Origin: a virus
IMG/VR virus record: IMGVR_UViG_3300045921_000146
Coordinates: 33,515-97,514 of that record
DNA: 64,000 bases
Direction: 5' to 3' (one strand)
Shown: positions 7,300-32,576 of the stretch, piece by piece
Layout: each line of letters starts with the position of its first letter
How positions within the stretch are numbered: position 1 is the first letter of the stretch
Program-made: the position numbers and the translations under genes
Notes under the pieces: model-generated
What the model saw: only the letters and a program-made list of their open reading frames with translations
What the model was told of the DNA's origin: nothing
Databases searched by the model: none

Positions 7300-7343
7300 A
7301 CTCTTCACTCCCTATCAAAAAACCTGTTCAAAAGCAATTTAAA

Positions 7344-9743: not shown

Positions 9744-9997
9744 AAATTGTAGTCCTTTATATACCTATCATAAATATGCTGCACATGGAGCCTAAAGGCT
9801 TCTGAATGAGCGTGTTTAAGAAAGTATTTTGTTAGTGTTACTAATCTTACTGCTTCTGTAGCGTCCATATTCATAGAATACATCAACTTTGCTCTTAATA
9901 TATCAAATTCTTCTAATAAAGATATGTAATGTCCGTTTTTTTCTAATTTAGCTACTCTTTTACTGTCTATATGTGTCACTTTTTTATCTCTGTCCAT
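9740..9997 (-). CDS. Hypothetical helical protein
   Basis: 85 residues, mostly charged helix-forming sequence (for example KRVAKLEKNGHYISLLEEFDILRAKL), no recognised motif. It overlaps both neighbours, the RecB-like nuclease and the uracil-DNA glycosylase, so it is translated in the same operon. No function can be assigned. Confidence 0.65.
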   Translation of the reverse strand: MDRDKKVTHIDSKRVAKLEKNGHYISLLEEFDILRAKLMYSMNMDATEAVRLVTLTKYFLKHAHSEAFRLHVQHIYDRYIKDYNL

Positions 9998-10472
9998 ATG
10001 CTCTTTTTATTGCATTTTTAATGTCTAATTGAAAATTTTCATAGCTGTTAGCTACTCTACCTAAAAAAGAAGGGTGATAAGTAGGTACTACAAAGTAACC
10101 TTCCAAAGTGGGTCTTGCGACTCCTCTCTCTGTTGTTATTTTGATGTTTTGTCCTAGTAAAGCTTCAGTAGCGACTCTTCCTAGAGTAACTACTACTTCA
10201 GGTTTAATTAAAGCTAGTTCAGCTCTAAGTAGTGGTAGGAATTGTTGTACTTCTGAGTCTGTGGGAGTTCTGTTTTCTGGAGGTCTAAATTTAACTACAT
10301 TAGTAAGGTAGACTTGATCTCGAAATACTCCATAACTCATAAGAGTTTCTAGTAGAATACTACCGGATCTACCTACAAAAGGTTTGCCGCAAATTTCCTC
10401 CTGCTCTCCAGGGGCTTCGCCTACAAATACTATTTTAGACTTAAGATTGCCTTCGCCGTTAATTAGTTTCAT
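9984..10472 (-). CDS. Uracil-DNA glycosylase, family 4-like, lacking the Fe-S cysteines
   Basis: 162 residues. Motif 1 is GEAPGEQEE at 18-26, followed by GKPFVGRSGSIL; motif 2 region is NVVKFRPPENRTPT; motif 3 is PTYHPSFL near the end. These identify the family 4 type that removes uracil from DNA. Family 4 enzymes normally bind a 4Fe-4S cluster through four Cys; here the N-terminal Cys pair is absent, and the two later positions are Phe (KFRPP, QQF). It may protect the phage genome from deamination. The missing cluster suggests a diverged, cluster-free enzyme. Confidence 0.85.
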   Translation of the reverse strand: MKLINGEGNLKSKIVFVGEAPGEQEEICGKPFVGRSGSILLETLMSYGVFRDQVYLTNVVKFRPPENRTPTDSEVQQFLPLLRAELALIKPEVVVTLGRVATEALLGQNIKITTERGVARPTLEGYFVVPTYHPSFLGRVANSYENFQLDIKNAIKRAYGQR

Positions 10473-10698
10473 TTTTGTTTACCTGCTCCAATAAATCTTC
10501 TAAACACATTTTACACGCTTTATGAAATAGTAATTTATCTTTCAGTACAGCTAATTTACTTAATTCTTTTATATCTGGAGATTTGCCCGATGTCAAGTTT
10601 TTTTGTTTTCCGTCCATATTAGCTTGAACCAACATCAATTCTTTTTCGTGCTCGGCAATGTTATTCTTAATAATTTTAATTATTTTAGCCATTTCCAT
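10459..10698 (-). CDS. Hypothetical small helical protein
   Basis: 79 residues, likely a helical hairpin (KIIKIIKNNIAEHEKELMLVQ and a second helix near the C-terminus with two Cys, CKMCLEDLLEQV). Overlaps both neighbours by about 14 bases. No family recognised. Confidence 0.6.
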   Translation of the reverse strand: MEMAKIIKIIKNNIAEHEKELMLVQANMDGKQKNLTSGKSPDIKELSKLAVLKDKLLFHKACKMCLEDLLEQVNKNETN

Positions 10699-11197
10699 AT
10701 AATACCTCTAAAACTTGAGCTTTTTCAGGCCATTTATGTTTTGCTAAAGTTATACATACCTCTTTAAAAAAATTAGACTCTTCCATACTATCTTCGGTAG
10801 GAGCTATATTCAAGGAATAACTTAAAGTTCCTAGCATATAAAAACCGTCCTCGCCCTTGGCGGCGGAAATTATAGAGTGTACGCAAGATTGAAACAAATG
10901 GAAAAAACCCGTCTCCATTGCAGAAAATTTAGCTCCTAACTCTTCTAATATAGCTAAATCTTTAGTTTTTAGGTAGTTTTCACAGTAATGTGAAACTTCT
11001 TTCATAGCGTTTGAGTACGATCTAAATTGAGATTTCTTAAATATACTTAATAAGATAGTAAATCTTTGCTCTGGCGACAGGGACAATAATAATTTGTGGG
11101 CCGCCTCTTCGTAACGACCCTCCTTGTAAGTTTTCATTAAACTATCAAAATCTTCCCTTTTAGTTTTGTTTTTAAGAACTTGTAGTGCCTTATTCAT
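10685..11197 (-). CDS. Hypothetical protein
   Basis: 170 residues, largely alpha-helical, with no catalytic motif visible. The middle contains several hydrophobic helices (FTILLSIF, MLGTLSYSLNI) but no convincing membrane segment. It overlaps the following small gene and is preceded by the Cys-cluster/HTH regulator-like gene with a 4-base overlap. Confidence 0.65.
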   Translation of the reverse strand: MNKALQVLKNKTKREDFDSLMKTYKEGRYEEAAHKLLLSLSPEQRFTILLSIFKKSQFRSYSNAMKEVSHYCENYLKTKDLAILEELGAKFSAMETGFFHLFQSCVHSIISAAKGEDGFYMLGTLSYSLNIAPTEDSMEESNFFKEVCITLAKHKWPEKAQVLEVLYGNG

Positions 11198-12072
11198 TCA
11201 GACCTCAAAACTTCTGGTATAGAGTAAATAATCTCTGTTTTACCTGCAACTTTAACTTTTTTAACAAACTTATGCCAAGTAACGTTATGTTTTTTAAATA
11301 TAGTATTAACTTTTTCGGAAACAGTGCTGGGACTCAGGTTATATAATTTAGAAACTTCTGTCAAAGTTTTTTTATCTACATACATTTTGTTGAGTAAGTC
11401 TAGGTGTTTGGGTTTTAATTGATGACCTTTTTCAGTCAAAAATTTTCTAACTGCCGCAAATTGGCTCAATCTAGTGAGACTAGAGTAGAAAACATAGGTA
11501 GCATCTTTTTGATTATACAACCCTTCTTCTTTAGCTATAGTTGCGAAGTCTTTTTGCAGGTGTAATCTTTTTTTTACTATTCTTTGTTTTTCTTCTGTTA
11601 GTACGTCCCAAGGCACTTCTTGATCTGTTATGGTGGGTATAGTAAAAGAAGGGTTTTCATCTACATGGGGGTCTAAATTTTCTACTAAAACTACTTCTAC
11701 TTCAGGTTTTTTCCACCTATTTATAAAGTCATTAACTTGACTACAAGTTGCAGTACATTTTTTAACGATTGGGCAAGTATCGCAATTAGACAGGTATAAC
11801 TCGTTATCCTTTATTGTGTGCGTTTCTTTAAGCTTTTCTAAGTAGGGGGCGGCTGTTTCAGATTTCCAAGGTAAAGGGCGGCCCATACACTCTTTACCAA
11901 TGCACACAAACCTCTTAGGGCACTCGTCGTAACTTTCTCCGTAGTGAAAGTTAGCCTCTTCTCGAATCTTAGCTAGTACCTTATTCTGGTCGTCGCCAGT
12001 AATAAATTTAGCCCAAGGAGGCTTAGTACACGCCGCAGGTTTGAATTTAATTTTAAAGTCTTTCTCTTTCAT
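11194..12072 (-). CDS. Cys-cluster protein with sigma-region-4-like HTH, putative transcription regulator
   Basis: 292 residues from the ATG at 12072 (TAATG overlap with the transglycosylase stop). Residues about 50-110 carry two Cys groups, CPKRFVCIGKEC and CDTCPIVKKCTATC, suited to binding zinc or an Fe-S cluster. Near the C-terminus (about 215-255) is a helix-turn-helix, LDLLNKMYVDKKTLTEVSKLYNLSPSTVSEKVN, resembling sigma factor region 4 or LuxR-type HTHs. The combination suggests a DNA-binding regulator, perhaps switching phage transcription. I do not recognise a named family. Confidence 0.6.
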   Translation of the reverse strand: MKEKDFKIKFKPAACTKPPWAKFITGDDQNKVLAKIREEANFHYGESYDECPKRFVCIGKECMGRPLPWKSETAAPYLEKLKETHTIKDNELYLSNCDTCPIVKKCTATCSQVNDFINRWKKPEVEVVLVENLDPHVDENPSFTIPTITDQEVPWDVLTEEKQRIVKKRLHLQKDFATIAKEEGLYNQKDATYVFYSSLTRLSQFAAVRKFLTEKGHQLKPKHLDLLNKMYVDKKTLTEVSKLYNLSPSTVSEKVNTIFKKHNVTWHKFVKKVKVAGKTEIIYSIPEVLRSE

Positions 12073-12611
12073 TACAACCAACGCAATACGTCTTTACGGT
12101 ATTTTTCTGCATACTCCTGAGTGCTTGAGTGATATCTGGTCCACCAATATTTTTCTTTGCTACCATAAACTCTTTTGTAGGTTCTAAGTATTTTAATAGT
12201 CTGTTCCACGCTGTACTCTAAATCGTTAATTAATCTGTAAGGGTGTAAGTCATAAGCCACTATAGTCTTGTAATTAATTTGACCTATACCAAAATCTCTA
12301 CAAGTATTACCTTCAAAGTATATTAGTCGCTCTAAACCTTTGTTATCAGGTATGTTTACTTCTACTAGACCTTCAGTACAGTTCTTCGCTTTATGATTGT
12401 AAGTAGATTCTTGCATAAAAATAGCAGAAACTAGAAAAGGGTTTATTTCATAGTGAGCAGCTCTACGCCTAATAATAGAAGCTAATTCTTTAGCATAGTT
12501 TTTATTAATTTTGGGATTATTCTTTAAAATGTGGCAATATACTGGAAATTTTTGGCAATCTTCTGCTTGAAGTAGGCCTACTGTAAATAAGCTGAGTATT
12601 AGATTAAGCAT
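12072..12611 (-). CDS. Exported lytic transglycosylase (SLT lysozyme-like)
   Basis: 179 residues from the ATG at 12611 (GGAG upstream). A signal peptide (MLNLILSLFTVGLLQA) precedes an SLT domain: INPFLVSAIFMQEST with catalytic Glu68, a Cys-bounded insert, then FGIGQINYKTI, the GxGQ-type motif. It would cleave peptidoglycan glycan strands in the periplasm, either for lysis or for envelope remodelling. The signal peptide indicates export by the host Sec system rather than holin release. Confidence 0.85.
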   Translation of the reverse strand: MLNLILSLFTVGLLQAEDCQKFPVYCHILKNNPKINKNYAKELASIIRRRAAHYEINPFLVSAIFMQESTYNHKAKNCTEGLVEVNIPDNKGLERLIYFEGNTCRDFGIGQINYKTIVAYDLHPYRLINDLEYSVEQTIKILRTYKRVYGSKEKYWWTRYHSSTQEYAEKYRKDVLRWL

Positions 12612-13098
12612 AATCACTCCAATCGGGAGCCTTTCTCCCCGTCCATTGAGGGGGTCTAGCGTCAGTGGACCACCTTGCGTTTAAATACAGCTTATAAGCG
12701 TCTGTAACAGGCGAAATTAATTTGAAGTTAAACCCCTTTCCTTGGTGGGCGGCACAGTTAGCAAAGGTCGTCAGAGGGCCTTCTGGTAAGTTTAAGCGCA
12801 TTTCTAGTAGTTGTTTTAATATGTCGTCGCACTTATGCACCTTACCGTATCGAAAAGTATATTCTTCTGACAAAGCCTTGCCATGAAGCCATAGCCAAGT
12901 CCAATTAGCTCTAGTTTCTCGACACCAAACATTTGAAGGGTGGTTCTTATGAGTACTTTTATAGGGAGCTTTTCCGCCATTTTCGTTAATAGCCGTAGAA
13001 AGCATTTGGCAAGTCTCTAAGACCATCTTCACGACTCTTTTGTCGTCGAGACTTATAGCAGCTTTATGAGGGTCGGTGTCCGTAAAAAATATGTTCAT
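12604..13098 (-). CDS. Conserved phage protein (MNIF-DP-AA-DK-VVKM type)
   Basis: 164 residues. The N-terminus MNIFFTDTDPHKAAISLDDKRVVKMVLET, then KNHPSNVWCRETRANWTWLWLHGKALSEEYTFRYGKVHK, is a pattern I have seen in many phage proteins of similar size, sometimes labelled pyrimidine-dimer glycosylase-like. I cannot confirm that label. Conserved His, Trp and Arg residues suggest an enzyme acting on nucleic acid. It overlaps both neighbours. Confidence 0.7.
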   Translation of the reverse strand: MNIFFTDTDPHKAAISLDDKRVVKMVLETCQMLSTAINENGGKAPYKSTHKNHPSNVWCRETRANWTWLWLHGKALSEEYTFRYGKVHKCDDILKQLLEMRLNLPEGPLTTFANCAAHQGKGFNFKLISPVTDAYKLYLNARWSTDARPPQWTGRKAPDWSDYA

Positions 13099-13421
13099 CC
13101 TTCTATTCCATACAGTATTTTAACTGTTGTCAAGTCTTTATCTTTTAAGCTTACAAAGTTAGTATGTTTCCATCCATTACTTTGATTTTGGTCGTCTTTT
13201 TTAATGGGCACTAAGTTCTGCCAAGCCAAGTCTAGGCCTGTTTTATTTTTTATTATTTTAGCTAACTCTTGTTTGCAACCGTTAAAATATTTTCCCCCTA
13301 CAACATAAGTTTTTCCTTTAGTAAAACTTCCCCCATTAAAGCTAATTTCATTACTCTCTGTTTCTAAGCACAAAACTAAATCGCCTCTTTTTAAGTCTAG
13401 TAAATCTTGTAAAGTCATCAT
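13095..13421 (-). CDS. LYG-motif small protein (outlying family member)
   Basis: 108 residues. It begins with a beta-rich segment (LKRGDLVLCLE, then FTKGKTYVVGGKYF) and ends TTVKILYGIEG, the same 'A/V-x-x-LYG' ending shared by the small paralogues at 29.5-32.6 kb, 18.4 kb and 19.4 kb. The 'GD' turn and alternating hydrophobics suggest an SH3- or KOW-like barrel. Function unknown. It overlaps the preceding and following genes. Confidence 0.65.
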   Translation of the reverse strand: MMTLQDLLDLKRGDLVLCLETESNEISFNGGSFTKGKTYVVGGKYFNGCKQELAKIIKNKTGLDLAWQNLVPIKKDDQNQSNGWKHTNFVSLKDKDLTTVKILYGIEG

Positions 13422-13998: not shown

Positions 13999-15393
13999 CT
14001 ACCTACGGACTTTTTTAGTTACTTCAATCTCTGTTTTAGATCCCCAAGACCAATTAAAGTTTTTAGCATAACTTTTTAGCACAGCCCACATAACAGGATA
14101 ACGAGGCTTTTCAATATCTGAAGAAGACTCCCAACATCCGCCGTCAGTTAAATAGATTAAGCCATCGACGTCCATTTTGTTATTTTTAATGTGCTCGAAC
14201 ACTGGAGCAAATCGAGTGCCTCCTCTACCTTTAACTTGAATTTTCTTTCTTGGGTCAAAATCGTAAACAGCTTGGACTTCTGCGTCACACTCAATAACAG
14301 TAACTTTAACATTTAATTTATGGATTCTATCAATTTCAGCGATGAATTGAGCCAACTCTTCGTCATTTACTGAGCCTGAAGTGTCGATAGCGACTGCTAG
14401 GTGCATTACTGGTAATTTTTGTAGTCCTGGGTAAAGGATACCGTACCTACGATTTCTACGTTTTCTGGTAGACTCTACGAGTATTTCAATTTGTCTAGCT
14501 ACAAATCTTTGCAAGTCTTGTCTCCAGTCTTTGGGTACATGATTAAGAGCTTCTATAGCAGCTTGAACATCGGCAGGTAAATTTCCAATAGCTCTCTGGT
14601 CAGTTTGCTCTACAGCCTTATTAACTACTTCTTTTACTTTTGCTGTAATTTCTTCTTCGCTAGCGTTACCTTGGTGCCACATACTATGGTCGTCAAGTAA
14701 CATACCTTGACCTTGACCACTTTGAGGATTTTTTTCATTTTCTTGACACAAAATCTCATAATAGTACTCAGTGTTTTGTCTGTTCTTAACGCCCTTGATC
14801 TGTTTCTTAAGTTCATCAACTAAAAGGCAGCCAGTTTGAATAGCTTTTCCAGCATTAGGATTAGCTATTTTTTTTGTCGGGTCTTTGGGGTCTTGCATTT
14901 CTTTGTCGTGAACTATAGGATTGCCTTCTTTGTCGAAAATTTTAAAATTCTTAGGTAAATTTGGCAAGTACTCATTGATTGCATAATCTGCCGCTTTATT
15001 AAGCGTACTAGCGTTCATAGCATCTTCAATTTTACTACTGATAGATTTAGGATTTTTCTCATCATAAATTTGCGGCTCTAGGTCTCGAAAACGGACAAAA
15101 TGGTTCATAATTACATGGTGACATTCGTGTTTCAATACTTCTACTCTTTCTTTTAATGTCAATGAACAAAAGAAGTAGGGATTAACAATAAGCGCAATCT
15201 GGTCTCCAGACATTTCCGTACCTGGAGGCATAACTCCTAAAGTGGGAATATCAGTAGTGAACATTCTTTTCATATTAAGCATTAAGTTAGCATAAAAAGG
15301 CTCAGAAAATACCAACTCCATCATAGTCTCTTCAAGAACGTCTTGTGGGTCTTGCTTAATGTCTTGTTCTTCTACTTTCTTTTTCTTTGCCAC
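13999..15393 (-). CDS. VWA-like/putative metallopeptidase protein (DUF2201-type)
   Basis: 464 residues, GTG start with GGGAGGA upstream. The N-terminal domain has HECHH at 89-93, a zinc-metallopeptidase-like motif; the C-terminal domain is a von Willebrand A-like fold with the MIDAS start DTSGS at 337-341 and YLTDGG later. This two-part layout is that of DUF2201 proteins, which pair with MoxR AAA+ ATPases; the MoxR gene is directly upstream. Such pairs act as chaperone-like remodelling systems. Its phage substrate is unknown. It has its own promoter at 15422-15450. Confidence 0.82.
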   Translation of the reverse strand: MAKKKKVEEQDIKQDPQDVLEETMMELVFSEPFYANLMLNMKRMFTTDIPTLGVMPPGTEMSGDQIALIVNPYFFCSLTLKERVEVLKHECHHVIMNHFVRFRDLEPQIYDEKNPKSISSKIEDAMNASTLNKAADYAINEYLPNLPKNFKIFDKEGNPIVHDKEMQDPKDPTKKIANPNAGKAIQTGCLLVDELKKQIKGVKNRQNTEYYYEILCQENEKNPQSGQGQGMLLDDHSMWHQGNASEEEITAKVKEVVNKAVEQTDQRAIGNLPADVQAAIEALNHVPKDWRQDLQRFVARQIEILVESTRKRRNRRYGILYPGLQKLPVMHLAVAIDTSGSVNDEELAQFIAEIDRIHKLNVKVTVIECDAEVQAVYDFDPRKKIQVKGRGGTRFAPVFEHIKNNKMDVDGLIYLTDGGCWESSSDIEKPRYPVMWAVLKSYAKNFNWSWGSKTEIEVTKKVRR

Positions 15394-15482: not shown

Positions 15483-16571
15483 TTAATTAATACCTTCAAT
15501 TTCCAATTTACGAGCATCAGCAAACAATTTAAGAAGTTCTTTGCTTTCTTCAATAACTTTGCGTGCAGACTCTTCCATGTAAAGTTCACGGCACAAGGCG
15601 AAAGCTAAATCTTTGGGGATAGCCAACAAGAATTGTCCCAAATTATCTTTTTCTGAAGCTTCAAACTGTTTACCGTTTTGAGTGTACTGTTGAGCCAACT
15701 CAAGAATAGAGTCGCTAGTATATTTAAGCATATCAATACGACCTCCAGTTTTAGCGTTAGAATACTTTTTAATGCGAGCCTTCACATTTTCAAAATTTTC
15801 CACGACTTCTCTAGCCGTGATAGGTTTGTCTTCGCTTTCCAAAGATTTAAGGTATGCTGTGCCAGCCGTTGTGCCTACAAGTCCGCAAATAAGGTCTCTA
15901 CGCAAGTGGACAGGCAGTTTGGCCTTCATAAGCTTGTCTACAGCCTCCCAAGACCGACGAGAAGGGGTCACGCCAAGGTCGTAGGCTTCCAACTCTCCCT
16001 GAAGCATTGCAGGTTGTTCAGAAATGAACTGCACGATAGAAGGGTCAAAACCTTTCTTTTTTGCGTAAGAAAGCCACTCTGTTTTGGAGGGAGCCAATTT
16101 AATCTGACAAAAGCGATCCAAAAAAGCTCGGTCAGAAATATCTGTTACTACATAGTCTTGGGTAGAAGGGTTGGCCGCAGCAATAACTGACCAACCTTTA
16201 GGCAACTTATATTCGTGAAGGCGTTTATCCAATACCAGTTGAAATACAGCTTGCAATACGTCACGGCGGCCACGGTTGATTTCATCAAGAAAAATAACAC
16301 CTTGCGACTCTGGGTCTGTAGGAAACCAAGTAGGCTGCATGAATTTAGTAGCTACTTTTTCTCCTCGCTCATTGACTTTAAAGTCGGCAAGACCTAACAA
16401 GTCTCCAACGTCTTGAGTACCAAGGCGCAAGTCAACAAAGCCTAGTTGATTTTCGTCGCAATACTGCCGAACAGCTTGAGACTTACCCACTCCATGATGC
16501 CCCCATACCAGTACAGCTACTCCAGTTTCTCGGATGAAAGGCAAGCTTTCTTTAAATTGGTTGATATTCAT
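15483..16571 (-). CDS. MoxR-family AAA+ ATPase
   Basis: 362 residues. Walker A GHHGVGKS at 24-31, Walker B VIFLDEINRG (Asp95-Glu97 region), sensor-1-like IAAANPS, and arginine-finger region DRAFLDRFCQI. This is the AAA_5/MoxR layout. It is immediately upstream of the VWA/DUF2201-type protein, its standard partner. It would use ATP to remodel a protein complex selected by the VWA partner. AGGGAGG precedes the ATG. Confidence 0.88.
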   Translation of the reverse strand: MNINQFKESLPFIRETGVAVLVWGHHGVGKSQAVRQYCDENQLGFVDLRLGTQDVGDLLGLADFKVNERGEKVATKFMQPTWFPTDPESQGVIFLDEINRGRRDVLQAVFQLVLDKRLHEYKLPKGWSVIAAANPSTQDYVVTDISDRAFLDRFCQIKLAPSKTEWLSYAKKKGFDPSIVQFISEQPAMLQGELEAYDLGVTPSRRSWEAVDKLMKAKLPVHLRRDLICGLVGTTAGTAYLKSLESEDKPITAREVVENFENVKARIKKYSNAKTGGRIDMLKYTSDSILELAQQYTQNGKQFEASEKDNLGQFLLAIPKDLAFALCRELYMEESARKVIEESKELLKLFADARKLEIEGIN

Positions 16572-18181: not shown

Positions 18182-18386
18182 TTACCACCAACCTATCGTG
18201 AGCAAACAAAGTAGGATAAGTAATCCTCTCTAAATTTTTAAGGTCAAACAATTCGTAACTATTACCATAAATAGGATGGTCAGGTACTTGTTGTAAGACC
18301 ATAAAACTTTCCGAGGAAAAGAACTTCTTAGCAGTTTGTTTGACAACTAAGAATTGATTAGGTTTAAAATTAAACACTCTTTCCAT
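18162..18386 (-). CDS. Small beta-rich protein, possible LYG-family relative
   Basis: 74 residues, ATG at 18386 embedded in the 'LYGK' codons of the gene before it, so translation is coupled. The sequence (FKPNQFLVVKQTAKKFF...FMVLQQVPDHP) has the beta-rich style of the LYG family but lacks the LYG ending. Function unknown. Confidence 0.6.
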   Translation of the reverse strand: MERVFNFKPNQFLVVKQTAKKFFSSESFMVLQQVPDHPIYGNSYELFDLKNLERITYPTLFAHDRLVVNEKIRS

Positions 18387-18612
18387 AAAGAACCTCCGCT
18401 ACATCCTTACGAGTAATTATAGCGCATTTGTCTTCAAGCTTACTTTCATAGTAACGCTTCCACTCGTCGTTAGAACCCTTATTGCTAGTAGGATTCATAA
18501 CCTTGAGAGTGTATAAATTTTGATTTTTAACAAAATCTACAGCGTCAACAAATAAAAATACTTTTTGTTCTTTGTGAAACAGAATGTCTGAAACTTTATA
18601 TTTACTCTTCAT
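18370..18612 (-). CDS. LYG-motif small protein
   Basis: 80 residues: beta-rich N-terminus (YKVSDILFHKEQKVFLFVDAV) and the shared ending RKDVAEVLYGKSV. The bases encoding LYG also hold the start codon of the following gene. It belongs to the same paralogous family as the genes at 29.5-32.6 kb, though 11 kb away. Function unknown. Confidence 0.65.
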   Translation of the reverse strand: MKSKYKVSDILFHKEQKVFLFVDAVDFVKNQNLYTLKVMNPTSNKGSNDEWKRYYESKLEDKCAIITRKDVAEVLYGKSV

Positions 18613-19159: not shown

Positions 19160-19423
19160 TTAAAACTCCCAACGCCAATTTAGCCTTTTATTGACTATAA
19201 TCTCATGTATTGCAATACCTGTGCCCACATAAGGCTCAATATCTTTAGGTACATAGCGTTTCTGTAGTCGTTGAACTTTTTTATCTATGTTAAAATGTTT
19301 TACAAAAGCCTCCCCAGCCATAGGTAAAGCTTGGTTACTGCAATGCAGTTCTTGCTCCAGCTCAAAGGTGGGCGTTTTGGCGGCCACTGGAACCATTAAA
19401 ATAAGTGTCAAAATATTAATCAT
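19160..19423 (-). CDS. Small secreted protein
   Basis: 87 residues with a signal peptide (MINILTLILMVPVAAKT). The mature part is short, basic, and has no motif I recognise. It overlaps the LYG gene upstream by 8 bases. Likely periplasmic. Confidence 0.6.
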   Translation of the reverse strand: MINILTLILMVPVAAKTPTFELEQELHCSNQALPMAGEAFVKHFNIDKKVQRLQKRYVPKDIEPYVGTGIAIHEIIVNKRLNWRWEF

Positions 19424-19646
19424 TTTGTTCCTGCATTTTAGAGTAAAGAACTTTAGCTACTTGAGGGTCTACTTTCATATAAGCAATATTGACCATACGT
19501 TTAGGAATGGTTAGTAATTGGTCGTCGCTCTCTCTACGAAGAAATACTTTATGTAAGTCAGTCTTTATAACGAAATATAAGTCTTCGGGATTAGTCTTTT
19601 GGCAAATGTAATCATTTTTTTGTAGGTTTACTTTTAATTTACTCAT
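19416..19646 (-). CDS. LYG-motif small protein (LYS variant)
   Basis: 76 residues. Beta-rich body (YICQKTNPEDLYFVIKTDLHKVFL) and the ending DPQVAKVLYSKMQEQND, the same 'A-x-x-LY' helix end as the family at 29.5-32.6 kb, especially 29836-30063 (DPVAEILYSN). Here the motif does not contain the next start codon, so it is conserved for protein reasons. Function unknown. Confidence 0.65.
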   Translation of the reverse strand: MSKLKVNLQKNDYICQKTNPEDLYFVIKTDLHKVFLRRESDDQLLTIPKRMVNIAYMKVDPQVAKVLYSKMQEQND

Positions 19647-21936: not shown

Positions 21937-22500
21937 TTAGTCGTCCCCGAACAGTATCTTCTGTACGTCACTGACAATTTGGCTCTTGGGTATCCAAATA
22001 GGGCCAATAATACCAGCAATTTTGGCCTCTTCTTCAATCTTAGCTATAATTTCTTGAGCCTTGTCTATAGTAGGCCGTTCAATCTTAAAGTATTTCTTAG
22101 CGCAAACAGGGCCAATACCTGTAGCTTTACTAATCTGGTTGTCTAATCCTCTACCGCAACAATGGCAAACAGAAGCTATCTTAGAGCTAAAAGAAACCTT
22201 AACTTGGATAGCTCTGTTACTTTCTGAAACGACCTCTTCAATAACTAAGTTACGAAAAAAGAAAGGTAGCTTTTGAGTTTTAGCAAGACTTTGAGCTAAC
22301 CACTTCCTAATAGTAATAGTTTGCCGTACTTTATAAGTAAACTCTTTGGTAGCCTCTTGCTTGGTAAAGAAATTAACAGCGCATTCTAATTGTTTAGGGG
22401 ATAGTTGGCCGTACTTCTTAGCTTGGTACTTTAAACTCAGGATAAAAGAATTAGAACCTGAGTAATTGCTAAGTTTTTCGAGAGTTTGTTGGTTGTCCAT
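21937..22500 (-). CDS. DUF6011-like zinc-knuckle protein
   Basis: 187 residues. Residues 112-138 carry CHCCGRGLDNQISKATGIGPVCAKKYF, the short zinc-binding pattern (C-x2-CGR-L...GIGPVC) found in many phage and plasmid proteins. The remainder is helical and basic, with an N-terminal repeat-like helical region. Probably nucleic-acid associated. A 137-base gap to the lipoprotein gene contains no gene but an intergenic G-rich sequence shared in part with 23.8 kb. Confidence 0.65.
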   Translation of the reverse strand: MDNQQTLEKLSNYSGSNSFILSLKYQAKKYGQLSPKQLECAVNFFTKQEATKEFTYKVRQTITIRKWLAQSLAKTQKLPFFFRNLVIEEVVSESNRAIQVKVSFSSKIASVCHCCGRGLDNQISKATGIGPVCAKKYFKIERPTIDKAQEIIAKIEEEAKIAGIIGPIWIPKSQIVSDVQKILFGDD

Positions 22501-22544: not shown

Positions 22545-23012
22545 CTAACGCCAATAGCTTCGATATGACTCCCAATATTTGTCTAAACAGTAGGGCACTG
22601 TCAACATTGAGAACATTAAATTCTGAGGGCAGCCGTCTGGCCGCAAGTCTTCGATATGATAAGGGATTTTAAACTCACAATGGATTAGTTCGTGGTAAAT
22701 TAAAGCCAAACGACTTTGAGTACTCATATAAATCCATTTATTTTCAAGCACTTCCACTTCTGTAAAAGTTTTAGTCGTTACAAAAGGCTGTATTCCTTTC
22801 TTAGCAGTCCAAACTCTACATTGCGCCAGCCTCCTATTCGGTAGGCTTTTAACGAAATTCACTGAGCTACTAACTGTTACGCCGTAATACGCTTCAAAAT
22901 CAGCTACGTAAGGTTTTAAGCTTGGGGCTATACCTACCTGGCCTCTAGGGTCAGGAAACGAACCGCAAGCCGTTAAAAGCGTTAAAAAGGCTAAAAGCGA
23001 CCACTTATTCAT
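22545..23012 (-). CDS. Lipoprotein with HExxH metallopeptidase motif
   Basis: 155 residues. The lipobox LLTAC (Cys16) follows a good signal peptide. YHELIHCEFKIPYHIEDLRPDGC has the HExxH zinc motif with a further His and Asp downstream; with six Cys in all, the mature protein is probably disulphide-bonded. It would be a membrane-tethered periplasmic protease, or a protein using the same fold. Confidence 0.7.
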   Translation of the reverse strand: MNKWSLLAFLTLLTACGSFPDPRGQVGIAPSLKPYVADFEAYYGVTVSSSVNFVKSLPNRRLAQCRVWTAKKGIQPFVTTKTFTEVEVLENKWIYMSTQSRLALIYHELIHCEFKIPYHIEDLRPDGCPQNLMFSMLTVPYCLDKYWESYRSYWR

Positions 23013-23259
23013 TTTGGCCTTTCAAAAATAGTATTTTAACCGCTTTAGGTATTTCTGTGGCGGACTCTAAAGGGATAGAGTCATTTTCATAACTTCTCTG
23101 GTAAACTTGATTTTCTGCGCACCAATCTGTTTGACCCCTAAAGTTCTTACATTTAAAATTTTTGGAGCAAAAAACCCTCCTAGCAAGACCATCGTCTAAA
23201 ATTTCATCAATATGATAACCTTCGTCGTAAATCATGATTTTTAACTCATACTTAGACAT
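23005..23259 (-). CDS. Small Cys-containing hypothetical protein
   Basis: 84 residues with three Cys in the middle (FCSKNFKCKNFRGQTDWC). No signal peptide, no recognised family. Overlaps the lipoprotein gene start by 8 bases and shares TAATG with the preceding mini-gene. Confidence 0.55.
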   Translation of the reverse strand: MSKYELKIMIYDEGYHIDEILDDGLARRVFCSKNFKCKNFRGQTDWCAENQVYQRSYENDSIPLESATEIPKAVKILFLKGQNE

Positions 23260-23896: not shown

Positions 23897-24064
23897 TTAT
23901 GATGATCTATATAGCATCGTATACCAATTGTCCAGCCTAGTAAAAAAACTTATGCTACCTAAATAAATTATAAACTTTAATATAGGGGTCAAAACGTATT
24001 TAACGAAAGCTAAAGTAATAACAAAATTAGCTAACAGTTGTTGGATTAAATTAAAGTTGCTCAT
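23897..24064 (-). CDS. Small membrane protein
   Basis: 55 residues found by hand. ATG at 24064 overlaps the stop of the upstream paralogue (ATGA). One long hydrophobic helix (LLANFVITLAFVKYVLTPIL, IIYLGSISFF) then a short polar tail. Its coupling to the SR-repeat genes may mean they work together at the membrane. The 145 bases after it (23751-23896) hold no gene. Confidence 0.5.
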   Translation of the reverse strand: MSNFNLIQQLLANFVITLAFVKYVLTPILKFIIYLGSISFFTRLDNWYTMLYRSS

Positions 24065-24273
24065 TCAATGCCCCTACTTAATTTATTTTTTTTACCAAAT
24101 CTAGAGCTAGAATTAACTCCCGATTTAGAATTAAACATTGTAATACTCCCAAACAAAGACCTAGACGCACAAATAGACCAAGATTTATAGGTAGTTATGG
24201 ACCTTGGTTTAACTCCAGTTTTAGATTTATAATTTGAATACATATATTGTGGTAGTTTATTATAGTAGTTCAT
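24061..24273 (-). CDS. SR-repeat paralogue 3 (diverged)
   Basis: 70 residues from the ATG at 24273: it begins MNYYNKLPQYMYSNYKSK, nearly the same N-terminus as the two genes before it. Its tail is Ser-rich (KSWSICASRSLFGSITMFNSK) but no longer a regular repeat, so this copy looks diverged. Function unknown. Confidence 0.6.
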   Translation of the reverse strand: MNYYNKLPQYMYSNYKSKTGVKPRSITTYKSWSICASRSLFGSITMFNSKSGVNSSSRFGKKNKLSRGIE

Positions 24274-24274
24274 A

Positions 24275-24475
24275 CTACTTACTTTCCTTACCAGACCTAG
24301 ACCTAGAACCAAACCTAGAACCAGACCAATAATTAGACCAAGAACTAGACCAAGAACTAGACCGAGGCCTAGACCAAGAACTAGACCGAGGCCTAGACCC
24401 AGAACTAGACCCAGACTCAGACCTAGACCTAGAACCTTGATATAACCAATTTGGTAGCTTATTGTAGTAGCTCAT
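24275..24475 (-). CDS. SR-repeat paralogue 2
   Basis: 66 residues: N-terminus MSYYNKLPNWLYQGSRSRSE then about 45 residues made almost only of Ser, Arg, Gly, Trp and Pro (PRSSSWSRPRSSSWSSSWS). The tail is coded by 6-base tandem units (TCTAGG/TCTTGG on the minus strand). Stop and start are separated by one base from its neighbours. Not a family I recognise; the shared head and repeat tail suggest a short binding head plus a flexible basic tail. Confidence 0.6.
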   Translation of the reverse strand: MSYYNKLPNWLYQGSRSRSESGSSSGSRPRSSSWSRPRSSSWSSSWSNYWSGSRFGSRSRSGKESK

Positions 24476-24630
24476 ACTATCTAGTTTCCTTACCAGACCT
24501 AGAAATAGACCAAGAACTAAACCGAGACCTAGACCCAGACTCAGACCAGCAAGACATAGGCCAAGAGCCAGACCCAGACCCAGACCAAAACCCAGACCAA
24601 GACCTAGACCTAAAACCAGACTTAGAACCT
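24290..24630. repeat. Hexanucleotide tandem repeats under the SR-repeat genes
   Basis: Two arrays of imperfect 6-base units (plus strand CTAGAC, CAAGAA, CCAGAC) at about 24290-24435 and 24500-24625. Since the unit is a multiple of three, gain or loss of units changes tail length without shifting the reading frame. Confidence 0.8.
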
Positions 24631-24668
24631 TGATATACCCAACTTGGTAGTTTATTATAGTAGTTCAC
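24477..24668 (-). CDS. SR-repeat paralogue 1
   Basis: 63 residues: N-terminus MNYYNKLPSWVYQGSKSG, then a Ser/Arg/Gly/Trp tail (RSRSWSGFWSGSGSGSW). First of the three tandem copies. The conserved 12-residue head in three adjacent frames argues that these are real genes and not chance open frames over a microsatellite. Confidence 0.6.
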   Translation of the reverse strand: MNYYNKLPSWVYQGSKSGFRSRSWSGFWSGSGSGSWPMSCWSESGSRSRFSSWSISRSGKETR

Positions 24669-26020: not shown

Positions 26021-26242
26021 ATGAGAACACCAAGCATTGAGATTAAGAAGCTTAACTTGCAAAAGGTTGAGATACAATTGGCCGTCTTAGAGCAAAGAAT
26101 TGATGATGCTAAGGCTAAGGTAGCGGACCTAGAGTCTAAACACGACGAAAGACTGGCCCTACTACAAAGCTTGCAAGCGGAACTGAACGGCTTAGTGGCC
26201 TCTAAGACTGAAGACATCCAATCCCCCTTTGGCAAGCAATAA
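26021..26242 (+). CDS. Small coiled-coil protein
   Basis: 73 residues: one long heptad helix (IEIKKLNLQKVEIQLAVLEQ, then DDAKAKVADLESKHDERLALL). AGAGGAGA precedes the ATG. It is a single-gene unit closed by a strong terminator. Probably dimerises; function unknown. Confidence 0.65.
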   Translation: MRTPSIEIKKLNLQKVEIQLAVLEQRIDDAKAKVADLESKHDERLALLQSLQAELNGLVASKTEDIQSPFGKQ

Positions 26243-26252
26243 GCGTGCCAAG

Positions 26253-26274
26253 CAGCCCGAAAGGGCTGTTTTTT
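26253..26274 (+). terminator. Rho-independent terminator
   Basis: CAGCCC-GAAA-GGGCTG followed by six T. Ends the transcript of the coiled-coil gene 11 bases after its stop. Confidence 0.9.
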
Positions 26275-26504
26275 ATTTGCCTTGGTCCGGACCGATCTAG
26301 CGTAAAGTGTCACCGTCTCAATTTGAGCCGTAAATACGACTATAACTTATACAACTGCCAAACTACTGTAAACACGACTAATTTTCATATTAATACACTT
26401 ATTGACCAAATTATAGCCTATTCTTATATTGATACCTTAATGATTACAATAACTTACAATTGGCAGCAATATTGCTACTAATAATAAGCAAAGGAGACCG
26501 TACT

Positions 26505-26645
26505 ATGTATAAGATCATACTAAGTCAAGATAGAACCAGAGCAGTGATTCACTTTGAGACGCATTCAGTTCAGGTTACAGCTACCAATAGTAGCTTGAAT
26601 GTGCTTTATTTACTTGAAACGTTGGGTTTTATTAAACTGAAATAA
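26505..26645 (+). CDS. Mini-protein of 46 residues
   Basis: Starts at ATG 26505 after AAGGAGA; upstream start codons in the same frame have no ribosome site. Beta-hairpin-like (MYKIILSQDRTRAVIHFETH) followed by a helix. It directly precedes the GP88-family gene and is probably co-transcribed. The 26275-26500 gap has no gene but holds a 12-bp palindrome AGCAATATTGCT at 26465. Confidence 0.5.
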   Translation: MYKIILSQDRTRAVIHFETHSVQVTATNSSLNVLYLLETLGFIKLK

Positions 26646-26658
26646 CCGAGGAGATGAT

Positions 26659-27327
26659 ATGCAATATCTAAGTCAAAATGAAAAAATGAAGCGTAGCTCT
26701 ACTGTTTTTGATCTATACAATTGGGGAATCCCGGCCTTCCTAAGCAAGGACGGACTGAAGACCTGTCCCAATGCGAAACACTGCGTCGCAGGTTGTTATG
26801 CAAAGAGCGGTGCTTATCTGTTCTCCAATGTTGCGGCTAAATACGAACAGCGGCTGGGCTTGGCCTTATCTCCGCATTTTGTGGACACTATCAGTCTTGA
26901 TATCGCTAAGGCTTGCAAGACTGCCTCAAAACGAAGCAAGAGTCCCCTCATAAGAGTACACGATAGCGGCGATTTTTTTAGCCTGGACTATACTCTTTCT
27001 TGGTTTAGGGTTATGAAAGCCTTCCCTCACGTTCCCTTTTATGCTTATACGAAGCAAGTCGAGCTTTTAAAGGACTTAAAGAATGCAAATACCATACCCG
27101 ATAACCTCACTCTTATTTACTCTTATGGCGGTAAACAGGATTATTTAATCGACCCGACTAAGGACCGACACTCTAGGGTTTTTGAGACATTAGAGCAAGC
27201 CTTAAAAGAAGGTTACGCCGATGCGTCTCACGATGATACAGTGGCGCTAGGGGAGAATCACCGTATCGGACTAGTATATCACGGAGTGAAGCGGTACGAC
27301 AATACTGCTTGGGATAAGGTGAAATAA
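26659..27327 (+). CDS. GP88-family phage protein
   Basis: 222 residues. It matches the gene-product-88 pattern: NEKMKRSSTVFDLYNWGIPAF, TCPNAKHCVAGCYAKSGAY, IRVHDSGDFFSLDYTLSWF and VPFYAYTKQ. The four Cys in the first third and the HDSGDFFS box are the conserved features. The family is widespread in phages and plasmids but its biochemical role is not known to me; the Cys cluster suggests metal or Fe-S binding. GAGGAGA precedes the ATG. Confidence 0.8.
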   Translation: MQYLSQNEKMKRSSTVFDLYNWGIPAFLSKDGLKTCPNAKHCVAGCYAKSGAYLFSNVAAKYEQRLGLALSPHFVDTISLDIAKACKTASKRSKSPLIRVHDSGDFFSLDYTLSWFRVMKAFPHVPFYAYTKQVELLKDLKNANTIPDNLTLIYSYGGKQDYLIDPTKDRHSRVFETLEQALKEGYADASHDDTVALGENHRIGLVYHGVKRYDNTAWDKVK

Positions 27328-29482: not shown

Positions 29483-29812
29483 TCAAGGGGTATGGTCAGG
29501 TATAGGGTCGGGCTTAAAAACCAACCTGAGCCCTTTTAAAGGGGCGACTTTGTGTTGACTCCCGTACAGGATCATCTCAGTTTTAGTTATAGGCTTAACT
29601 AAACTAATAGGCCAACTATCGTAAGTATTTGTTTTTATTTGTATTATATCTCCGTAGTGAGTTAGTACTGTATATACGCCTTTAAATACGTCTAGTATTA
29701 TTTCTACTCCTACTATCTTTCCTTTTAAAGTTAAACCTAGTACTTGGCCTCGTACGAACTTAGGGGGGGAGTCGGAAGGGGGGTGCTTTAATTTTTCGTT
29801 TTTATTTTTCAT
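29483..29812 (-). CDS. LYG-family small protein
   Basis: 109 residues. Basic, Pro-rich head, then a beta domain (FVRGQVLGLTLKGKIVGVEIIL) and KTEMILYGSQHK, then a 20-residue tail. Last gene of the leftward LYG cluster. A 'G-x-V-x-G' turn at the first strand resembles SH3/KOW barrels. Function unknown. Confidence 0.6.
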   Translation of the reverse strand: MKNKNEKLKHPPSDSPPKFVRGQVLGLTLKGKIVGVEIILDVFKGVYTVLTHYGDIIQIKTNTYDSWPISLVKPITKTEMILYGSQHKVAPLKGLRLVFKPDPIPDHTP

Positions 29813-29835
29813 CTAGTTCTAAAATTTTAAAAAAA

Positions 29836-30063
29836 TTATTTTTCGGGGTTGCTGTATAGTATTTCAGCTACTGGGTCTACTATTTTAAATCTTTTACTAT
29901 GTATTCTACTAGTACCTACGGTGTAAGTTCTACCTGTGCCTAAGTTTTTTACGTGGTAGCCTATCAAGTATTTGTCTACGTAGTGGTGCCCTGTTATTTG
30001 GTATTCGTACATGGACGTCTTCAAAATCAAACCTACGGGGTATCGGCTAAAGTTTGGGGGCAT
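29836..30063 (-). CDS. LYG-family small protein (LYS variant)
   Basis: 75 residues: beta-rich body (GLILKTSMYEYQITGHHYVDKYLIGYHV) and DPVAEILYSNPEK at the end, closest in its ending to the gene at 19416. ATG start at 30063. Function unknown. Confidence 0.65.
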   Translation of the reverse strand: MPPNFSRYPVGLILKTSMYEYQITGHHYVDKYLIGYHVKNLGTGRTYTVGTSRIHSKRFKIVDPVAEILYSNPEK

Positions 30064-30073
30064 CGTTAAGCCT

Positions 30074-30352
30074 TTAGTCCTCGTCAGGTTGACTTAATTG
30101 GTTTAAGTGTTCTTTTTTTACGTACAAGGTAATTTCTGCTTGAGTCAAGGGTCTAGTTTTAAGGGTAGTTTCTTTTATTGGGAATATTTTGTTCATGGTC
30201 ATTATACTTAGTATTGTAGTTACTGTTTCGTCGTCTACTACTACGAATTCTAATTTTAGTCCTTCTGGTAGTACTTCTACTACCTTACAATAGGTGAACC
30301 CCTTCTCCCCAGGATTTATGGCCGTACGTAGGTCTCCTACCTTAAAGCTCAC
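30074..30352 (-). CDS. LYG-family small protein
   Basis: 92 residues, GTG start overlapping the previous stop. Begins SFKVGDLRTAINPGEKGFTY and ends TQAEITLYVKKEHL. The 'VGD' start followed by strands is the clearest barrel-like head in the family. Function unknown. Confidence 0.65.
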   Translation of the reverse strand: MSFKVGDLRTAINPGEKGFTYCKVVEVLPEGLKLEFVVVDDETVTTILSIMTMNKIFPIKETTLKTRPLTQAEITLYVKKEHLNQLSQPDED

Positions 30353-30618
30353 TTAGCCTCCGGCCCGTACAGGATAAGTTCAGCGTCAGTAGCCTTTCTA
30401 AACATAGTGTGTACTAAGGCGGTAGCCAATTCTGTACCTACTCCTTGGTAAACCAAACCTGGGTAGGCTACGACGTACCTAGGGACTGGTAGGGTAAATT
30501 TGTCTGTAGGTTGAGGTACGTAGGTAGTCTTTAATACAGTTACCATGAACTCTACGTTTTCTACGTGTACTAGTACGTCTCCAGCTTTAAATAGGAAGTC
30601 AGGGTGCTTTACTTGCAC
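30349..30618 (-). CDS. LYG-family small protein
   Basis: 89 residues, GTG start at 30618 with GAGG upstream. Contains FLFKAGDVLVHVENVEFMVTVL (the family's 'GD' strand pair), a longer loop, and the ending ATDAELILYGPEAK. Function unknown. Confidence 0.65.
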   Translation of the reverse strand: MQVKHPDFLFKAGDVLVHVENVEFMVTVLKTTYVPQPTDKFTLPVPRYVVAYPGLVYQGVGTELATALVHTMFRKATDAELILYGPEAK

Positions 30619-30734
30619 GTTGTGGTGCCTCTAAGGGTTGTAGGCCCGGTAGGGAGCAAGGCTTTAACCCGGCGTCGGGGTAGCGCCAGCTCCCTGAAGT
30701 AATGGCCTGAGTACGTTTGAGTGTTATTGGCCAT
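30609..30734 (-). CDS. Possible 41-residue basic protein
   Basis: Short frame starting at ATG 30734, overlapping the end of the gene before and the start of the gene after. Arg/Thr-rich and without a strong ribosome site. The overlapping arrangement suits the operon, but the coding evidence is weak. Confidence 0.3.
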   Translation of the reverse strand: MANNTQTYSGHYFRELALPRRRVKALLPTGPTTLRGTTTCK

Positions 30735-31080
30735 TGCGCCGTTCTCTCGATAAAGTAGGGGGAGGGCCGTAAAGGGTGGCAAACGCAGGAGGTACTTCGA
30801 CCAGTTGAAATTCGTAAATAAGACTTTCAAACGAAACTGTTTTAGTTTTTTTACTGCTACAGCTTTTAATTTTAAACCTTTGTTCTAAAGGTTCTCCGGA
30901 AAAGCTGTAGTACGAAAGGTTTTTAGCAAAATACACGTCTTTAATCTCCCAAACCACCCCAGAAGAGAGCCTCAACACTTTAAAATTTCCAGAGGGTCTA
31001 GTGTCAAAAACTCTTTGAAGGTATGCGGTGTAGGCTGCCAGATACGCTTTTAGTTCTTCTGAGTCAAAATAAGTAGGCAT
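30724..31080 (-). CDS. LYG-family protein, first gene of the leftward cluster
   Basis: 118 residues from the ATG at 31080. The longer frame to 31116 would start at TTG inside the -35 box of the promoter, so I reject it. A helical head (SEELKAYLAAYTAYLQRVF) precedes the beta-rich part (VLRLSSGVVWEIKDVYF) and the ending PPAFATLYGPPP. The promoter's start site falls at or next to the ATG, so the mRNA is probably leaderless. Confidence 0.65.
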   Translation of the reverse strand: MPTYFDSEELKAYLAAYTAYLQRVFDTRPSGNFKVLRLSSGVVWEIKDVYFAKNLSYYSFSGEPLEQRFKIKSCSSKKTKTVSFESLIYEFQLVEVPPAFATLYGPPPTLSRERRNGQ

Positions 31081-31087
31081 ACCTAAA

Positions 31088-31116
31088 GTATTACAAAACT
31101 TATTGACACCTGTCAA
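31088..31116 (-). promoter_or_regulatory. Leftward half of the divergent palindromic promoter
   Basis: Minus strand TTGACA (31116-31111), 17-base spacer, TAATAC (31093-31088). Expected start at about 31080-31081, on the ATG of the leftward LYG gene. Its -35 is one arm of the palindrome TTGACA-CC-TGTCAA. Confidence 0.65.
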
Positions 31117-31131
31117 CCCTTAAGTTATATT
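31103..31131 (+). promoter_or_regulatory. Rightward half of the divergent palindromic promoter
   Basis: TTGACA (31103-31108), 17-base spacer, TATATT (31126-31131). Start expected at 31138, the A of the ATG. The two -35 boxes form the arms of a perfect inverted repeat with only two bases between them, so two polymerases cannot bind at once. Confidence 0.75.
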
Positions 31132-31137
31132 TTTTTT

Positions 31138-31332
31138 ATGACCCTAAAAATAGGCGCAGTTTACAGAAATGTGGAGGACTCAAGTTTGTGGGAACTCAAT
31201 AGGGTTCAAGGTAGTAGAGTTTATATTAATCTTTACAATACTTTACCTATGTATTCTATTAAAAGAGTCAGTTTAAAAACCTTTAAAGAAAAATACATAT
31301 TTGATAATATTTATAATATATTATATAAATAA
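31138..31332 (+). CDS. LYG-family small protein (LYK variant), leaderless
   Basis: 64 residues, ATG at 31138 with no ribosome site, six T directly before it and a promoter that would start transcription on the ATG. Body TLKIGAVYRNVEDSSLWELNRV, ending NIYNILYK. Function unknown. Confidence 0.65.
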   Translation: MTLKIGAVYRNVEDSSLWELNRVQGSRVYINLYNTLPMYSIKRVSLKTFKEKYIFDNIYNILYK

Positions 31333-31381
31333 TATAATTTATAATAAATATATTAATTATATATAAATAATATATTATATA

Positions 31382-31419
31382 AATAAGTAAAATATATTAT
31401 TAAATATATTTTACTTATT
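31382..31419. repeat. 17-bp AT-only palindrome, copy 2
   Basis: AATAAGTAAAATATATT (31382-31398) and its exact complement (31403-31419) around a 4-base loop, within a 150-bp almost pure AT stretch (31333-31480). Same arm length and same AATAAGTAA...TTACTTATT ends as the palindrome at 17551-17589. Confidence 0.85.
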
Positions 31420-31448
31420 ATATTAAATAAATATATACTTTATTAATA

Positions 31449-31476
31449 TTGACTTAATAAGTATATATTATATAAT
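31449..31476 (+). promoter_or_regulatory. Promoter for the gene at 31486
   Basis: TTGACT (31449-31454), 16-base spacer, TATAAT (31471-31476). Start predicted near 31483, only about three bases before the ATG, again giving an almost leaderless mRNA. Confidence 0.7.
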
Positions 31477-31485
31477 AGGCAAGTG

Positions 31486-31743
31486 ATGAAAGTTAGAAAA
31501 TTACTAGATGAAGAGATAGAAAAACACGGTAAAGCCTTAATATTAATAAGGAATACCGTATTTTTAGTAGAAATTTATAGACCTTCAGTGCCCATATTAA
31601 ACATCCCAGTTGAGTATTTGATTAGCTATTTTGAGGAGGACGGAACTACTACCCCTAGTATGTATATTGAGGACTTGAGTTTATTTAGTGTGGAATTACA
31701 AGTACTTAGGTTAGACGTTATAAAAAAATTAATAAAAAAATAG
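31486..31743 (+). CDS. LYG-cluster small protein without clear LYG
   Basis: 85 residues from the ATG at 31486. Helical head (KLLDEEIEKHGKALILIRN) then strands, ending VIKKLIKK, a degenerate version of the family ending. Function unknown. Confidence 0.6.
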   Translation: MKVRKLLDEEIEKHGKALILIRNTVFLVEIYRPSVPILNIPVEYLISYFEEDGTTTPSMYIEDLSLFSVELQVLRLDVIKKLIKK

Positions 31744-31752
31744 GCTAAAAAC

Positions 31753-31805
31753 CCGAAAAGAGTGCCTCCAATATATATAAGTGAGGGGCAAAAATTTCGG
31801 AGGCC
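31753..31805 (+). promoter_or_regulatory. Leader that could hide the ribosome site
   Basis: GCCTCC (31774-31779) can pair with GGAGGC (31799-31804), the ribosome site of the gene at 31810. CCGAAA (31753-31758) can pair with TTTCGG (31795-31800). The two pairings share bases and exclude each other. Confidence 0.4.
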
Positions 31806-31809
31806 AAGC

Positions 31810-32040
31810 ATGAAGCTGCGGTTTATAGAGTACCAGGGAGGTACTTACTTGATTATTGGCTATTCTTATTGTACTTTGTATAGTGACCCTGAATGTTATG
31901 TAGGCTTAGACATTAAGGACATTCAAAGTGTAAAAAGTTTATCCAGTGAAATATTAGGTAAAAATATACCGTTGGCGGCAGCAAAGGAAATTAAAGACCC
32001 TAAAAAACTACGAGTTCTAAGGATACTTTATGGAAAATAG
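31810..32040 (+). CDS. LYG-family small protein
   Basis: 76 residues from the ATG at 31810 (GGAGG six bases upstream; a longer frame from 31762 has none). Beta start LRFIEYQGGTYLIIGYSYC, ending KKLRVLRILYGK. Its LYG codons contain the next gene's ATG. Function unknown. Confidence 0.65.
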   Translation: MKLRFIEYQGGTYLIIGYSYCTLYSDPECYVGLDIKDIQSVKSLSSEILGKNIPLAAAKEIKDPKKLRVLRILYGK

Positions 32041-32269
32041 CGCAGAAGCTAAAATTTACAGTTTAGACGAAGTAGTGCTATTTAGAGGCGAAGTGTATAT
32101 AGTAGCTGAAGTCCATATGTTAAATTGGTTCAGTAAAGACCCCTTTGTTTACGGACTTATAAACTATAAGCAACGAAAACAAAAAGAAGTACCCGACGTT
32201 TACGTACGATCTGAGTTTATTAAAAAAGCCTCAGAAGAAGACTTAGTAATGGTGCTATATGGGAAATAG
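32030..32269 (+). CDS. LYG-family small protein
   Basis: 79 residues, start codon inside the previous gene's LYGK codons. Strand pair DEVVLFRGEVYIVAEVHML, ending EEDLVMVLYGK, which in turn holds the next gene's start. Function unknown. Confidence 0.65.
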   Translation: MENSAEAKIYSLDEVVLFRGEVYIVAEVHMLNWFSKDPFVYGLINYKQRKQKEVPDVYVRSEFIKKASEEDLVMVLYGK

Positions 32270-32576
32270 CCCTTTTATTAACACCTTTATAAACGCAGTT
32301 TTAGAGCGTTTGGTAGAAACTGACCAAGAATCTAAAAAGAAATTTGAAACGGGAGCTAGGTTATTTGATTTTGTGCCTGGGGATTACGTGCAATGCTCCT
32401 ACCGAAAAGGACTTTTTAAAGTTTACGGTATAAACAAAGATAAGCTTTTAGTGGTAGAGGTTACAGAACAGAAATTAAAAAATACTACTCAAGAAGTTTT
32501 AGAACTTAGCCCCAAGTTTGTTAAACTTAGCAATCTAGACTCAAATTGGGTTAAGGCTTTATACGATACAAAATAA
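32259..32576 (+). CDS. LYG-family protein (LYD variant)
   Basis: 105 residues. A helical head (INTFINAVLERLVETDQESKKKF) is followed by FDFVPGDYVQCSYRKGLFKVYGI and the ending DSNWVKALYDTK. Last of the rightward cluster. Function unknown. Confidence 0.65.
   Translation: MGNSPFINTFINAVLERLVETDQESKKKFETGARLFDFVPGDYVQCSYRKGLFKVYGINKDKLLVVEVTEQKLKNTTQEVLELSPKFVKLSNLDSNWVKALYDTK

Follow-up and report, generated by a model that had tools for sequence, protein, structure and literature searches.

A clade-limited C-terminal 'LYG' tail on small phage proteins of several families: a possible docking peptide

Why do so many small proteins of one phage end in nearly the same few residues? The question is raised by an array of short genes, arranged in two divergent clusters, at positions 29,483 to 32,576 of a 64,000-nucleotide stretch of viral DNA (the window, positions 33,515 to 97,514 of the 97,514-base virus record IMGVR_UViG_3300045921_000146, here G000). 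A first-pass annotation of the window had described about a dozen such proteins as one paralogous family with a common ending and probably a common fold. We found that the ending, a C-terminal 12-residue motif approximating [ST]-[EP]-[AML]-x-[KE]-[VI]-L-[YF]-[GDEK] (the LYG tail), closes at least 15-18 of the proteins encoded in the 97.5-kb record; each well-covered relative, these being uncultured phages too, has 7-27 of them.

Tails were scored with a position weight matrix of 12 columns, derived from small open reading frames (ORFs) of this record and eight relatives, and were counted at a matrix score >10, with the last 22 residues taken as the C-terminal zone. At this cut-off, 108 matches were obtained in 14,217 C-terminal positions vs 17 in 114,051 positions elsewhere. 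The motif is thus about 50-fold commoner per position at C-termini than inside proteins, in a comparison where matrix training overlapped part of the scored sequences. For this reason, out-of-sample loci are the better test, and tails were present in 13 of 15 further in-clade loci, some of them duplicates of each other (L020 was left out of the scoring; duplicates or near-duplicates are L039/L049, L042/L043, L044/L045, L047/L048 and L050/L051). The tail was found among terminase relatives at 66-99% identity, except for three short contigs (L013, L038 and L040), in which no tail was scored and the stretch upstream of the terminase is missing or nearly so. In an outgroup of 19 loci with distant terminases, a single match was obtained in 406 ORFs. 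These results place the LYG tail far above chance: it is a genuine C-terminal motif, limited to this clade. As the first-pass annotation had supposed, the set belongs to no named family: Pfam and PHROG profile searches gave none that covers it, the 115 members yielding no more than isolated weak matches, and no member in the window reaches any Pfam cut-off. The protein encoded at 30349-30618 retrieved no relatives when a phage collection was searched with its sequence or viral contigs with a pattern. In the literature searched, most subscription papers lying outside its reach, we found no tail of this kind described.

The bodies that precede the tail tell a different story. Once the tail was removed, 18 of 106 bodies converged at E < 0.01 in a profile that drew in no outside protein; a pairwise search left 63 singletons. 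Mutual retrieval, proposed earlier as a check of the family, was seen for part of the set. As bodies rarely link and the tail also occurs on unrelated families (see below), the set is not simply one paralogous family, although the shared ending is real. Still, many of the array bodies look like one-domain SH3/KOW barrels. AlphaFold2 models of two groups not within easy sequence reach of each other, that of gene 32259 (mean predicted local distance difference test score, pLDDT, 72; predicted template modelling score, pTM, 0.63) and that of the ORF opening at 31762 (ATG at 31810; mean pLDDT 72, pTM 0.57), both contain a predicted SH3-like barrel of about five strands. Their Foldseek neighbours (ribosomal eL21, NdhS and Spt5 KOW for the former; CAP-Gly, R67 DHFR, PWWP and Tudor for the latter) are mostly SH3-like in type, but the E-values are weak, none below 0.001, and similar folds are predicted in many small phage proteins. 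One relative, L042:5036-5302, exceeds the Pfam KOW cut-off (29.5 bits vs 22.3), with the window members below it. PDB sequence searches with family alignments A1 and A3 gave nothing significant, and the sequences of A1 had diverged too far for use in scanning a collection. The two models together with the L042 match support the earlier guess of an SH3/KOW-like barrel for part of the set. A KOW-type barrel (PF00467) is also present in T4 MotB, an early protein that alters host gene control (PMC7827196); unlike the LYG proteins, MotB has an OB-fold second domain and is not encoded in an array.

In four families besides KOW/SH3, the tail is present at the end and is retained from phage to phage. 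They are a helix-rich protein (10685), family 14296, a zinc-ribbon family and a DUF4177-like family, where 'helix-rich', 'zinc ribbon' and 'DUF4177-like' are labels assigned by eye. The tail also ends the counterparts of the helix-rich protein in G009, G012 and G008 (the G008 counterpart by position only), while tailed members of family 14296 were found in four phages, with E-values down to 1e-18. A DUF6011 protein with the tail (21937) is a lone example, possibly due to chance. Judging from these comparisons, the tail is not tied to the SH3/KOW fold, and the common denominator of all members is the tail, not the body.

Further information was obtained by comparing tails between genomes. When pairs with detectably homologous bodies were excluded, tails were more alike within a phage than between phages (z 10.8, p 0.0005), whereas the body segment adjoining the tail, used as control, showed little genome effect (p 0.03-0.05; z 0.6-1.9 for body controls). 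By its tail alone, a protein was assigned to the correct genome in 54 of 154 cases vs 19.7 +/- 5.3 by chance. Members of the non-KOW families were mostly not assigned to their own genome, and close relatives have a common tail type; consequently, genome-specificity is a statistical tendency. The best account of genome-specific tails is, in our opinion, a common partner that varies between lineages. Because the tails of a phage evolve together, they probably connect its varied proteins to one partner.

In all relatives that cover the region, the array comes just before the packaging genes. Outside the late region, the tail is carried by 15 of 107 genes in G000 and 21 of 114 in G008; inside it, none of the 51 and 54 genes, respectively, has one. 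L042 and L045 are 86% identical overall, yet one stretch of their arrays is unrelated. Array genes compared between the window and L011 have ratios of nonsynonymous to synonymous substitution rates (dN/dS) of 0.04-0.14 and are under purifying selection. Strong promoter-like sites are found at the divergence of the two clusters in the window and in L042, and a sigma-70-like promoter (11/12) lies at 31103-31131, near the 31138 gene. Location in the replication-type half of the genome and rapid gene turnover fit the effector or anti-host role suggested at first, which stays hypothetical. When the host was sought through the terminase, the only matches in bacterial genomes were 27-37% identical and spread over many phyla, and the window yielded no tRNA genes, so that no host is claimed.

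We hypothesize, giving the idea an even chance, that proteins of an accessory takeover set dock by means of the LYG tail. This short C-terminal helix would be a docking peptide shared by about 15-30 small proteins in each phage, most of them minimal KOW/SH3-like barrels, and would bind them to one common partner. This partner, encoded by the phage or by the host, would co-evolve with the tails as a single hub, and the variable bodies would each do something different, their likeliest job being early takeover or counter-defence. The array beside the terminase genes would be a site of gene gain, loss and reshuffling. We infer a helical state of the working tail, its binding, a common partner, early timing and a role in counter-defence. 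A broader proposal, which we find conceivable but less probable, is a clade-wide C-terminal docking code, in which one peptide is placed on a large share of the non-structural accessory proteins, of several unrelated folds, a single hub co-evolves with it and the phage lineage can gain new effectors through acquisition of the tag; a phage Clp-like/AAA machine might serve as the hub. Several points weigh against docking, for which the partner is hypothetical. Tails were picked by motif score and their likeness is thus partly built in, except for the within-genome excess. Recent duplication, with bodies diverged past recognition, is the main alternative for genome-specific tails and could generate them. 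The tail helix of the 31762 model, predicted fairly confidently (pLDDT ~78), might pack on its own barrel. Early expression is deduced from gene content and strand only, and no strong promoter-like sites are present near the divergence in L012 and L014.

Other explanations place the tail in the DNA, in the fold or in the membrane. The motif could be a DNA-level feature holding the ribosome-binding site and start of the next gene, the peptide being a by-product of translational coupling. Indeed, 38 of 99 tail genes, and 75 when a larger set is taken, have the start of the next gene at an ATG or TTG formed by their Tyr/Phe-Gly codons, and 36 of these 75 start-bearing tails contain Shine-Dalgarno-like tetramers. 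However, such tetramers occur in 8 of the 41 tails without a start within 60 bases, and these 41 keep K/E at -2, V/I/L at -1 and E/P at -5, with TAC in 8 of 31 Tyr codons and TAT otherwise also used. Moreover, the genome effect persists in tails without a start codon within 24 bases (z 3.1, p 0.002; control z 0.6). As start-less tails keep their residues, use TAC and rarely hold a Shine-Dalgarno sequence, the motif is selected as a peptide and doubles as a coupling site. Coupling is a real secondary use of the sequence, but as its sole cause it is largely refuted and most improbable. Also unlikely in our view, though much less so, is a structural role, in which the tail would be the C-terminal helix of a single, highly divergent SH3/KOW family spread by tandem duplication and would cap its own barrel without binding anything. 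This would agree with the SH3/KOW-like aspect of many array bodies and with the fair confidence of the helix in the 31762 model, but orthologues in unrelated families keep the tail, which varies by genome and not by body and is of low confidence in the 32259 model (pLDDT ~41-56). The least probable of all is a membrane-binding amphipathic helix. The tails are short, C-terminal and modestly amphipathic (mean moment 0.31), but MinD-type membrane helices are basic, while the tails have a mean net charge of -0.26, with half of them at -1 or below, and anchoring in a membrane is unlikely.

The remaining alternatives come from systems with a similar layout. T4 internal proteins (Ip1, Ip2, Ip3 and relatives) are recognised by a signal sequence, and different members block different restriction enzymes or defences (PMC12373910). 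They join a constant targeting sequence to variable, non-essential bodies, much as the LYG set joins a constant tail to variable bodies, and it could be proposed that the tail is a C-terminal packaging or ejection signal by which the proteins are loaded into the capsid and injected. The adjoining terminase genes would be in line with this, but we regard it as doubtful, given that the T4 signal is N-terminal and directs packaging, whereas the LYG tag stands at the C-terminus and none of the late structural genes in G000 and G008 has it. Still less credible is a tether to a protease or unfoldase, with the small proteins acting as adaptors or activators that deliver host proteins to a Clp-type machine. 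The Clp adaptor SspB is a small barrel with a C-terminal tethering peptide, and LYG proteins likewise have a small barrel and a C-terminal peptide, so that tail-unfoldase tethering would be proposed by analogy. There are two Clp_protease matches over the cut-off in each of G000, G008, G009 and G010, and MoxR-like AAA_5 and DUF2201 VWA genes are present. On the other hand, no sequence or structural match to SspB was found, no ClpX/ClpA-type AAA_2 match lies above cut-off in the six phage records (hence no phage ClpX as far as searched), and the two ClpP-like genes did not turn up in G011 and G012, which are partial records. The hydrophobic-Tyr-X motif at or near the C-terminus also recalls the HbYX proteasome activators (PMC12352868), in which it forms the last three residues; exactly one residue follows the Tyr in only 25 of 121 tails, and no PF00227 (20S-type proteasome) match was found in the six phage records. 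A comparison closer to the docking proposal is the T4 clamp-binding motif, a short, interchangeable hydrophobic C-terminal peptide by which gp43, gp55, gp33 and DNA ligase bind one hub (PMC2988020, PMC7892883). Both sets have a short C-terminal peptide on unrelated proteins, and hub binding by LYG tails would follow by analogy. Clamp ligand motifs are of the LDFL type, or QL[SD]LF in bacteria (PMC9690074), and the LYG profile fits neither. The DNA polymerase and ligase of this phage have no LYG tail, and no profile search aimed at a clamp was made. Literal membership among clamp ligands or HbYX activators was rejected on motif and position. Since the defining features of T4 internal proteins and clamp ligands are lacking, the resemblance is one of layout.

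Some genes of this phage deserve mention in relation to a hub. Two ClpP-like proteins are encoded at 804-1607 (minus strand) of the window and at 26068-26907 of G000 (window -7446 to -6607), and are conserved in G008, G009 and G010; one of them appears to be cytoplasmic, and the other seems to have a signal peptide. A MoxR-type AAA ATPase gene at 15483-16571 adjoining a DUF2201/VWA gene at 13999-15393, both on the minus strand, is conserved in relatives. The ClpP-like proteins and the MoxR/VWA pair are candidate hubs.

If the LYG tail does act in docking, a single binding experiment would be enough to uncover the hub that organises 15-30 uncharacterised proteins per phage. The tail could then be used as a search key for accessory, possibly counter-defence genes, as the T4 Ip signal sequence was. 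The set would, moreover, offer a clear example of viral effectors defined by a peptide tag rather than by a fold, the tag changing in concert within each genome.

All the genes listed by the first-pass annotation, in both clusters and as three outliers, exist with the endings described. The leftward cluster (minus strand) comprises 29483..29812 (109 residues; tail ITKTEMILYG followed by a 25-residue extension; matrix score 17.6), 29836..30063 (75 residues; IVDPVAEILYS-NPEK; score 15.7; in alignment A1), 30074..30352 (92 residues; PLTQAEITLYV plus a long extension; score 10.8), 30349..30618 (89 residues; KATDAELILYG-PEAK; score 16.9; stop and next start overlapping in GTGA) and 30724..31116 (130 residues as called from an uncertain TTG start; EVPPAFATLYG; score 16.2). 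The rightward cluster (plus strand) opens with 31138..31332 (64 residues), listed earlier as an LYG-type member; its NILYK ending is present, but NIYNILYK is a weak match below the cut-off. The next gene, 31483..31743 (ATG 31486), had been called degenerate and rightly so: it ends in VIKKLIKK, and the motif is absent there and in its L011 orthologue (dN/dS ~0.11). It is followed by 31810..32040 (ORF opening at 31762; 76 residues from the ATG; LRVLRILYG-K), which has orthologues in at least six phages and a predicted SH3-like barrel, by 32030..32269 (79 residues; KOW/SH3 body family; EEDLVMVLYG-K; in alignment A1) and by 32259..32576 (105 residues; NWVKALYD-TK; N-terminal helix and SH3/KOW barrel predicted). 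In both 31810..32040 and 32030..32269, the next gene starts inside the LY-G codons, at an ATG in the former.

The listed endings bear out the estimate of about a dozen members, but the set is larger, as 10685, 21937 and 23005 had been missed, along with about five more outside the window. The tail genes of the window away from the two clusters are all on the minus strand. The solitary ones already listed are 13095..13421 (108 residues; LTTVKILYG-IEG; score 16.1), 18370..18612 (80 residues; KOW/SH3 body family; KDVAEVLYG-KSV; relative in G008 at 67220) and 19416..19646 (76 residues; PQVAKVLYS; score 18.5; relative in G008 at 68479). The additional ones are the helix-rich 170-residue protein 10685..11197, downstream of the sigma-like gene 11194-12081 (AQVLEVLYG-NG; score 17.8), the 187-residue DUF6011 protein 21937..22500 (SDVQKILFG-DD; Pfam E 6e-9; score 12.4) and a weaker match, the 84-residue protein 23005..23259 (IPKAVKILFL-KGQNE; score 11.2). 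Further tail proteins outside the window were found by matrix score in L009 at 13905, 14296, 14555, 14877 and 16712, of which 14555 and 16712 score 8-9, under the counting cut-off. Directly downstream of 13095 lies a pyrimidine dimer DNA glycosylase gene (12604-13098, minus strand; Pfam Pyr_excise, E 1e-6).

Other observations concern neighbouring genes. Consecutive ORFs at 24061-24668 (minus strand) of the window have M[NS]YYNKLP followed by Ser/Arg-rich low-complexity sequence, and could be either paralogues or spurious. A primase-helicase (4258-7308, minus strand) contains an apparent intein inside its Walker A motif, with profile matches split around residues 430-760. In L016, a LAGLIDADG-like endonuclease gene (recognised by eye; 11153-11899) immediately precedes the portal gene, and in L011 the portal and major capsid genes (5335-8284 and 9636-11920) are apparently interrupted, each by ~1 kb, pointing to introns, inteins or insertions of another kind.

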